Assembly: GCF_001542775.1 (NCBI RefSeq)
Contig: NZ_CP014145.1
Coordinates: 3,286,001 to 3,350,000 of the forward strand
Length of the DNA stretch: 64,000 bases
Source of the DNA: Microterricola viridarii
GTDB lineage: Bacteria; Actinomycetota; Actinomycetes; Actinomycetales; Microbacteriaceae
Direction: 5' to 3'
Shown here: positions 25,056 through 28,076 of the stretch, piece after piece
How positions within the stretch are numbered: position 1 is the stretch's first letter
How the letters are laid out: each line of letters starts with the position of its first letter
Notes under the pieces: model-generated
Databases searched by the model: none
Told to the model about the DNA's origin: nothing
Seen by the model: the letters and a program-made list of their open reading frames with translations, nothing else
Position numbers and translations under genes: made by a program

Positions 25056-28000
25056 ATGGCGCAGCCGCTTCTGGAACTTCGCGAGATCACCAAGGCCTTC
25101 GGGTCGAAGGTCGCGAACGACCGCATTTCGTTGGAAGTCCAACCCGGACGAATTCACGCTCTCGTTGGCGAGAATGGCGCGGGCAAGACCACCCTCATGA
25201 CCATGATCGCCGGCACGGCTCAGCCCGACTCCGGCACGATCATCATCGATGGCGCCCCCGTCGCCATCACGAACCCGACGAAGGCGTCCGCGCTCGGCAT
25301 CGGCATGGTTCACCAACACTTCAAGCTCGTCCCCAACCTCACCGTTGCGGCCAACGTGTTCCTCGGGCGCGAGCTTCGCACCCCGCTCATGGCGCTGGAC
25401 ACGAAGAAGATGGAACGCGAAGTTGCCGCGCTCTCTGAGCAGTTCGGCCTCGCCATCGACCCGTCCGCCAAGGTCGCCTCGCTCTCCGTCGGTGTTCGCC
25501 AGCGCGTCGAGCTGCTCAAGGCGCTCAGCCACGACACCCGCCTGCTCATCCTTGACGAGCCCACCGCCGTGCTCACGCCGGGCGAGATCGACGAACTCTT
25601 CGTCGTCGTGCGCGGCCTCGCCGCCAAGGGCTGCGCCGTTCTCTTCATCTCGCACAAGCTCGGCGAGGTGCTCGACATCGCCGACGAGCTCACCGTCATC
25701 CGCGACGGCAAGTCCATCGCCACGATGCCGACCGACGGGCTCTCCCAGGCCGACATCGCCCAGATGATGGTCGGCCGCGAGGTGCTGCTGCGCATCGTGC
25801 ACACCGAGGCGGCCCCCACGCACGAGGTGCTCAACGTCGACGCGCTGACCGTGGTCGACGAGCGCGGCGTGCAGGTCGTCGACTCGCTCTCGCTCACCGT
25901 GCGCGCCGGCGAGATCGTCGGCATCGCCGGAGTCGAGGGCAACGGCCAGACCGAGCTCGCCGCCGCGATCGCCGGCATGGCCTCCAGCGCCTCCGGCCGC
26001 ATCGTGCTCTCCGGGCACGACATCACCACGGCGTCCGTCGCCGAGCGTCGCCGCGACGGCCTCGCCTACATCGCGGAGGACCGCCACGAGCAGGGCGCGG
26101 GGCCGAGCCTCTCGGTCGCCGAGAACATCATCCCGACCCACCTCGAGCCGCCCATCGCCCGGTTCGGCTGGATCAACTCGACCGCTGCGAACGCCTTCGC
26201 GCGCCGGCTGATCGAGAAGTTCGATGTGCGCGGAGCCGTCTCGAGCACCCCCATCGGCACCCTGTCCGGCGGCAACATGCAGAAGGTCATCATCGCCCGC
26301 GAGTTCGCGAGCGAGCCCGAACTGCTGATGGTCGCTCAGCCCACCCGTGGCGTCGACGTCGGCGCCATGGAATTCGTGCACAACGCCATCGTCGCCCAGC
26401 GCGACAAGGGCGCGGCCGTCCTGCTCTTCTCCGCCGACCTCAACGAGGTCATGTCGCTCTCCGACCGCCTCCTGGTCATGTTCCGCGGCACCATCATCGC
26501 CGAGTTCACCCAGGCGAACATGAGCGAGGCCGCCGTCGGCCTCGCGATGGGTGGCGTCGCCCCCACCGCGGATGCCGTCGCTGCCGCCGAGGCCGAGCAC
26601 GCCCTGGTGCGTGCAGAGCTCACCGGCACGCCGGTGGCCGCCGCATCCGCTGCGCCCCTCGGTGCGACCTCCGCCGTCGACGACGCGTCGACGCACGAGG
26701 CCGTCGCCGTCATCGACCGGGCCGCCGCTGCTCCCGCTGCTGCTGCTGCCGCTGCTGCTCCTGCTGCCGCGGCGACTGCCGCACCCGCTCCGCGCCGGGA
26801 GCGCGCCGCCGAGAAGCCGGCTGCACCCCGCCGGCGTGTGCCGGACCGCAGCGGAGACGGACGGGCGCCGAGCGTCGACATCCGCACCCGTCTGAGCTCG
26901 GCCGCCGGCAAGCTCGGCAAGGGAGCGATCCAGCCGCTCGTGGCCGTCGTGCTCTCCCTCGTGGTCGGTTCTGTGTTCATCCTCGCCATCGGGCAAGACC
27001 CGCTGCGCGCCTACAGCGAGCTGTTCTTCTCCAGCCTGCGCACCCCGTACGGCATCTCGGGTCTGATCGCCCAGCTGGTGCCGCTGCTCGTGCTCTCCGC
27101 CGGCGTGATCATCTCGTTCCGGGCCGGCTTCTTCAACATCGGTGGCGAGGGGCAGCTGTTCATCGGCGCCTTCGCCGCCGCGTGGGCCGGGTTCACCTTC
27201 ACCGATCTGCCCGGGCCCGTCCTGACTGTCGTCGTGATCGCGTTCGGCGCACTCGGCGGCATGATCTGGGGCATGATCCCCGGCGCGCTGCTGGCCTTCT
27301 GGCGCACCGACATCATCGTCACCACCCTGATGATGAGCTCGATCGCCACCCTGCTGACCGCCTACCTCGTCACCGGCCCGTTCCGCGACCCGACCGCCGG
27401 CCTCGTCGCCTCCGAGAAGATCGCCCCTGGCGCCGCCCTGCCGATGTTCGACGTCAAGTACGGCATCGGGATGGACCTCGTCCTCGCGATCGTGATCGCC
27501 ATCATCCTGGCGCTCATCCTGACCCGCACGGTCTGGGGCCTGAAGGTTCGCCAGCTCGGTGAGATGAACCGCTTCGCCGAGTACACCGGTGTCAACACGC
27601 GTGCGATGAGCATCCAGGTGATGGCCCTCTCCGGTGCCGTGGCCGGCCTGGCCGGCGCGATCTTCGTGCTCGGGCCGAACGGCGGCCGGTTCCTGCAGGA
27701 CTTCTCGCCGGGATACGGATTCCTCGGAATCACGGTTGCGCTGCTCGCGCGCCTGAACCCGTGGGCCTCGTTCCTCGCGGCCGCCTTCTACGCGAACATG
27801 ATGTCCGGCTCGAACGGCATGCAGATCAACACCGAGGTGCCGTTCCCGATCGTCACCGTGCTGCAGGGTCTGATCATCCTGATGATCACCGCCGTCATCG
27901 TCATCGACCGCCGCACCCGCGAGAAGATCGTCCGGCTGTTCGCCGGCCGCCACGGCGCCCCCAAGGCACCGCGCGGCACCCAGAGCAGCGCTGCATCGCT

Positions 28001-28076
28001 CTCGGCGCCGGCACCCGTTGACCCGTTCGAGACCCCCGCCCCCATTCACTCCGAGTCGAAGGTGACCCAGCCATGA
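25056..28076 (+). CDS. Fused nucleoside ABC transporter: duplicated ATPase joined to a permease domain
   Basis: This is one 1006-codon frame. Residues 1-500 are a tandem ATPase of the sugar/nucleoside type: NBD1 with GENGAGKTT (38-46), LSVGVRQ (143-149) and LLILDEP (163-169); NBD2 with the degenerate GVEGNGQ (292-298) and LSGGNMQ (403-409). Residues 500-625 form a low-complexity Ala/Pro/Arg linker. From about 625 a BPD_transp_2 permease of 8-10 helices follows (IQPLVAVVLSLVVGSVF, FFNIGGEGQLFIGAF, GFLGITVALLARLNPW). In relatives the ATPase and permease are separate genes. No stop, frameshift or convincing internal start breaks the frame. The end overlaps the next permease gene by 4 bp. Confidence 0.9.
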   Translation: MAQPLLELREITKAFGSKVANDRISLEVQPGRIHALVGENGAGKTTLMTMIAGTAQPDSGTIIIDGAPVAITNPTKASALGIGMVHQHFKLVPNLTVAANVFLGRELRTPLMALDTKKMEREVAALSEQFGLAIDPSAKVASLSVGVRQRVELLKALSHDTRLLILDEPTAVLTPGEIDELFVVVRGLAAKGCAVLFISHKLGEVLDIADELTVIRDGKSIATMPTDGLSQADIAQMMVGREVLLRIVHTEAAPTHEVLNVDALTVVDERGVQVVDSLSLTVRAGEIVGIAGVEGNGQTELAAAIAGMASSASGRIVLSGHDITTASVAERRRDGLAYIAEDRHEQGAGPSLSVAENIIPTHLEPPIARFGWINSTAANAFARRLIEKFDVRGAVSSTPIGTLSGGNMQKVIIAREFASEPELLMVAQPTRGVDVGAMEFVHNAIVAQRDKGAAVLLFSADLNEVMSLSDRLLVMFRGTIIAEFTQANMSEAAVGLAMGGVAPTADAVAAAEAEHALVRAELTGTPVAAASAAPLGATSAVDDASTHEAVAVIDRAAAAPAAAAAAAAPAAAATAAPAPRRERAAEKPAAPRRRVPDRSGDGRAPSVDIRTRLSSAAGKLGKGAIQPLVAVVLSLVVGSVFILAIGQDPLRAYSELFFSSLRTPYGISGLIAQLVPLLVLSAGVIISFRAGFFNIGGEGQLFIGAFAAAWAGFTFTDLPGPVLTVVVIAFGALGGMIWGMIPGALLAFWRTDIIVTTLMMSSIATLLTAYLVTGPFRDPTAGLVASEKIAPGAALPMFDVKYGIGMDLVLAIVIAIILALILTRTVWGLKVRQLGEMNRFAEYTGVNTRAMSIQVMALSGAVAGLAGAIFVLGPNGGRFLQDFSPGYGFLGITVALLARLNPWASFLAAAFYANMMSGSNGMQINTEVPFPIVTVLQGLIILMITAVIVIDRRTREKIVRLFAGRHGAPKAPRGTQSSAASLSAPAPVDPFETPAPIHSESKVTQP

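Follow-up and report, generated by a model that had tools for sequence, protein, structure and literature searches.

ABC importers are usually built from separate chains, and NupN, one component of the Bacillus subtilis guanosine importer NupNOPQ, belongs to the BMP family. According to the passages on this importer in PMC11466899, it comprises a tandem ATPase chain, the second site of which is degenerate and lacks the Walker A Lys, two different permeases and one binding protein; NupO, NupP, NupQ and NupN are tabled once each. The same passages give both ATPase domains in one chain as usual for NupO/RbsA-type ATPases, and describe a tandem ATPase in one chain for the ribose importer RbsABC also, which differs from the locus treated here by two identical permease copies (RbsAC2B in the table), by separate chains and by a sugar-binding protein (PMC11466899). 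Permease and ATPase in one chain are described for the HAA (branched-chain amino acid) importers of Brucella, in a passage that has the two usually fused in exporters; unlike the ATPase-ATPase-permease order found here, the Brucella proteins are IM-ABC fusions, listed with the permease ahead of one ABC (PMC2821768). For Myxococcus, a class "ATPase/transmembrane permease fusion protein" is named in a passage on ABC proteins, and that passage contains no BMP-type importer (PMC4103005). A search of the open-licence PMC literature turned up no account of a BMP-type importer with an ATPase-ATPase-permease chain, which is a weak negative.

The window, a stretch of 64,000 nucleotides, was taken from Microterricola viridarii, whose 3.69-Mb single-contig genome has 21 BPD_transp_2 matches. 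At 25056..28076 (+) it contains a frame of 1006 codons plus stop with no internal stop codon, so that the two ATPase domains and the first permease are indeed encoded uninterrupted, as stated by the first-pass annotation; the product has a computed mass of 104.8 kDa. We hold it about 85% probable that this frame is a real, inherited fusion of a NupO-like tandem ATPase with a NupP-like permease, belonging to a BMP-type importer most likely for nucleosides. The best reading of the locus is a rare, lineage-specific variant of a NupNOPQ-like BMP importer, differing from NupNOPQ, in which NupO and NupP are separate chains, by the linker that joins their counterparts.

Pfam placed two stretches of ABC_tran and one BPD_transp_2 domain (residues 667–944) on the fusion, and NCBIfam placed tandem ATPase models at residues ~5–498 and a permease model at ~625–957, all under cut-off; permease 1 spans residues ~609–962 of the chain. 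The ATG at 25056 fits as start in agreement with the ATPase homology, and the longer ORF of 1080 aa from 24834 has its beginning within the BMP gene. Antisense to the fusion, an open frame of 1048 aa (24903–28049, − strand) was noted and is attributed to high third-position GC rather than to a gene.

The fusion gene lies between a ribokinase gene (22790..23815, +; TIGR02152, 303.9 bits, cut-off 299.65) with a BMP/PnrA-type substrate-binding protein gene (23867..24925, +; Pfam Bmp, 190.2 bits, cut-off 24.1; lipobox LTAC by eye) on its upstream side and the gene of permease 2 (28073..29038, +; Pfam BPD_transp_2, 129 bits) on its downstream side. Permease 2 is thus separate, as had been proposed; its start is preceded by the SD match AGGTGA and overlaps the fusion stop as ATGA (28073–28076). 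A LacI-family regulator gene (21602..22753, −; Pfam LacI and Peripla_BP_3) is divergent. Three different nucleoside hydrolase genes follow in tandem (29075–32033), where clade relatives have one to five such frames: hydrolase 1 at 29075..30025 (+; Pfam IU_nuc_hydro, 342.3 bits, cut-off 34.2; UriH, the top named model, misses its cut-off of 450 with 431 bits), hydrolase 2 at 30022..30966 (+; IU_nuc_hydro, 276.1 bits) and hydrolase 3 at 31065..32033 (+; IU_nuc_hydro, 336 bits; RihA/RihC-like, under those cut-offs), every named hydrolase model being below cut-off in the window. The BMP protein has the PDB relatives 6y9u, 2fqw, 6shu (BmpD) and 9q1u (BmpA). The earlier placing of the locus in a BMP/nucleoside context was borne out by the BMP-family gene, the ribokinase and the three hydrolases of the cluster. 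These, taken with the PDB relatives of the BMP protein, point to nucleosides as the probable substrate.

With an adjacent BMP gene, a tandem ATPase with one degenerate site and two different BPD_transp_2 permeases, the locus has the defining features of a BMP/PnrA-type importer; the separation of ATPase and permease 1 into two chains, a usual and non-defining trait of that type, is replaced by the fused frame. Two other assignments were rejected. The NCBIfam models of a putative B6 BMP-type transporter (NF047927–NF047930) rank among the top named models for each of the four parts; they are modelled as separate proteins, and the label was discarded because all four parts score below cut-off (472.4/670, 196.6/400, 148/465 and 77.6/400 bits). 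An ABC exporter with fused TMD and NBD was dismissed on account of the BPD_transp_2 permease and the adjoining BMP gene. With phmmer, no sequence relatives of the permease with a solved structure were obtained at E 0.01. Foldseek against the PDB gave tandem-NBD chains as top matches, DppD and OppD of M. tuberculosis DppABCD/OppABCD, and by title no BPD_transp_2-type permease was among the 50 matches listed.

For the distribution of the fusion, the permease part was used as query in genome searches. A total of 105 loci, picked by similarity, were examined, 104 of them with a long ATPase match. Both domains could be placed in 98 fetched loci, with separate genes in 87 and one open frame in 11, which agrees with the statement that the genes are separate elsewhere; as the loci were picked by similarity, 87/98 is no frequency in nature. 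Nine fused loci (L009, L118, L119, L120 and L152–L156) have 60–78% permease identity to the window, followed by L010 (43%) and L121 (37%). The spread in related genomes, raised as a check by the first-pass annotation, thus covers every locus with at least 60% permease identity and an uncut gene: all nine are open fusions, eight of them without any N, and in a further clade locus, L157, a contig end cuts the gene within the permease. L120 (G320; frame 7887–10721) has one N and lacks some sequence around the first membrane helix, where the linker ends, which may reflect an assembly gap in GC-rich DNA. This locus is for that reason weak evidence of continuity; the ten other fused frames hold no N. 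Across the 87 separate-gene loci, identity to the window peaks at 37.4% for the permease and at 52.4% for the ATPase. Permease 1 starts 57–294 nt past the ATPase stop in 84 of these loci, so the fusion joins neighbours in their usual order. In the other three (L158, L159 and L161) the permease lies ahead of the ATPase.

In each of the nine clade loci with an uncut gene, a BMP gene (53–72% identity) and, after the fusion, a permease 2 gene (64–77%) are present, and the fetched stretch contains between one and five nucleoside-hydrolase-like frames. Ribokinase is encoded upstream of the fusion in L009, L118 and L120; in L119 and L152–L156 its gene lies downstream of the hydrolases. A divergent relative of the LacI-family regulator (49–63% identity) accompanies the first three; L119, L152–L156 and L010 have solely a LacI-type gene of 30–33% identity in operon direction. 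Given this different upstream gene, regulation was probably swapped in the genus of G209 (L119, L152–L156). The edges of the operon thus vary around a constant core.

Matches were few in samples drawn from larger groups, with at most 5 to 7 candidates scored per genome, so that misses are possible: 3 of 299 genomes of the family at E 1e-60 (the own genome, G028 and G209), 2 of 396 of the order at 1e-50 (own and G320), 4 of 396 of the phylum at 1e-50 (own, G710, G715 and G835) and 19 of 296 of the class at 1e-40, of which solely the own genome and, among the rows of other genomes, G320 exceed 40% identity. The genus of G209 gave matches in 7 of 54 genomes and the family of G320 in 1 of 4; the genus of G028 was sampled by one genome, G028 itself. 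L009, from Georgenia sp. SYP-B2076, came from a contig scan (best 80 of at least 593 stretches). In the other four genomes of the window's genus the best match reaches just 35–36%, in a separate-gene system. On plasmids, tblastn returned no fused member among the 15 matches listed of at least 5000, with places at 39–43% identity in two pieces. The fused operon is rare, with a patchy distribution that resembles the outcome of frequent loss or movement. A BMP-type system encoded by separate genes, with a tandem pair of BMP genes, is also present in the own genome (L124, C1:384000–396000), a layout found in the other four genomes of the genus as well (L125–L128).

Phylogenetic trees were calculated with 30 separate-gene rows, 20 picked as actinobacterial or near kin and 10 drawn at random from 67 others, with L121 left out. 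In the tree of 41 rows, the 11 fused rows form one side of one branch against the 30 separate rows (support 100/99), a branch present in 200 of 200 bootstrap trees of these rows; quick trees of the ATPase alone and the permease alone gave SH-aLRT values of 91 and 97 for it. The trees are unrooted and carried long-branch warnings, and only a root placed among the separate rows makes the fused rows one clade. A quick tree of 52 rows including L121 placed 12 fusions on one side with support 87, the L121 branch being by far the longest (1.87). L121 (G715, from another family of the phylum; 7488–10211, − strand) is a frame of 908 aa whose tandem ATPase is highly divergent (25.5% identity) and joined through a shorter linker to a BMP-type permease; within its family, a match to the L121 permease at E 1e-40 occurs in 1 of 5 genomes, its own. 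A single origin including L121 was not adopted in view of branch length and ATPase identity, and L121 may be a second, independent fusion. Judged from the sequences compared, the fusion of the window is real and inherited in one small actinobacterial lineage.

The linker (residues 500–625, 26553..26930, +) was assessed by sequence, composition and a structure model, for which an alignment of 54 rows, 10 of them spanning the linker, served as input. The model (pLDDT 86.9, pTM 0.81) has an ordered ATPase part and permease, with pLDDT below 50 solely at the linker core (530–603) and the tail (966–1006); a helix is predicted at residues 505–523, and a long helix leading into the membrane begins near 609 (609–644). 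By eye, the 505–523 sequence recurs in L009, L119, L120 and L152–L156 and is unclear in L010 and L118. The first-pass description of a 125-residue low-complexity, Ala-rich linker therefore stands in part: 46 of 126 residues are Ala, with runs at 556–573, yet only part of the stretch is low in complexity, given the predicted helix, and the Ala fraction of 0.33 in this species compares with 0.11–0.21 in six other fused loci, where the stretch taken is slightly longer. Linker length is 74–125 aa in ten fused loci, and 74–123 aa in the nine relatives among them (L120 left out).

Ratios of dN/dS were computed for eight pairs. Six of the ten pairs among L152–L156 gave 0–0.40 for the linker, 0.07–0.15 for the ATPase part and 0–0.18 for the permease part. 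L119 versus L152 gave 0.32 (linker), 0.20 (ATPase) and 0.37 (permease), and the window versus L009 gave 0.49, 0.34 and 0.26, respectively, with a linker dS of 1.43, near saturation. By these ratios the linker evolves like protein, looser than the flanking domains, and is under purifying selection among L152–L156. This selection bears on the alternative that survives best, namely that separate subunits arise, as elsewhere, through cleavage of the translated chain within the linker or through additional translation of the permease from an internal start. A long disordered linker in the model would suit such an arrangement, as would in-frame starts with SD matches of 4–6 nt in L010 and L118, 17–33 residues ahead of the column of the first membrane helix, and a GTG at 26838 (residue 595) of the window, which has no SD. 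Against it, besides the selection on the linker, no start site of this kind is common to the seven loci scanned, and the window lacks any in-frame start preceded by an SD match of at least 4 from residue 500 to the first membrane helix; the latter test is weak, as accepted starts in the same operon, those taken for the ribokinase, the BMP protein and the fusion, score at most 3. We regard cleavage or an internal start as unlikely.

One continuous chain remains the preferred reading, and its ATPase motifs are those of the separate chains. Walker A of NBD1 is intact in 10/10 fused and 22/22 separate chains, the Walker A Lys of NBD2 is changed to Gln in all of these aligned chains as well (10/10 and 22/22), and the Walker B acid of NBD2 is Gln in 10/10 fused and 21/22 separate chains; the same motifs in both kinds of chain indicate a motor unchanged by fusion. 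The concern that the stoichiometry of a second ATPase pair needs explaining falls away, as one chain normally holds both ATPase domains in the systems covered by the cited passages (PMC11466899). With a tandem chain normal for this type, one fusion chain would pair with one separate permease 2, giving two NBDs and two TMDs. A homodimer of the fusion chain, with four ATPase domains, two permease-1 domains and permease 2 used elsewhere, is formally possible for a chain that holds both parts and has nothing direct in its favour; we consider it very improbable in view of the ATGA overlap of permease 2 with the fusion gene, the presence of a relative of 64–77% identity after the fusion in every one of the nine uncut clade loci, and the precedent of NupNOPQ with two different permeases in the passages cited (PMC11466899). 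A stop removed or a frame shifted in the linker by sequencing or assembly error, for which its GC-rich DNA with GCT/GCC runs and the draft genome of L120 with its defect at the junction might speak, has next to no probability, since the fused frame recurs in nine related loci and hence more than by chance, eight of them fused without any N, two in single-contig genomes (G028 and G1323), and the linker dN/dS is far under 1.

In the mechanism proposed for the one-chain importer, the lipoprotein would deliver the nucleoside, and the two ATPase domains of the fusion chain would dimerise under both permeases, as proposed for NupNOPQ, with one ATP site degenerate. The disordered linker would act mainly as a tether, and the fusion would secure ATPase and permease 1 in equal amounts. 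Cytosolic hydrolases would then split the nucleoside into base and ribose, and the ribokinase would phosphorylate the freed ribose. It is conceivable, and we put it forward with more doubt than confidence, that the design is a lineage-specific one, an NBD-NBD-TMD chain plus a single free TMD, with permease 1 tethered behind the degenerate half of the ATPase.

For annotators, the long frame is right and is not to be split. The view of how the transporter works is unchanged by the fusion, and the importer looks ordinary; as a natural, conserved fusion, it offers a ready-made 1:1 construct of double ATPase and one permease. If the tether does follow the degenerate half, the importer would be of fixed handedness, with a defined motor half always tied to a defined permease, and would make it possible to ask which permease each ATP site drives.
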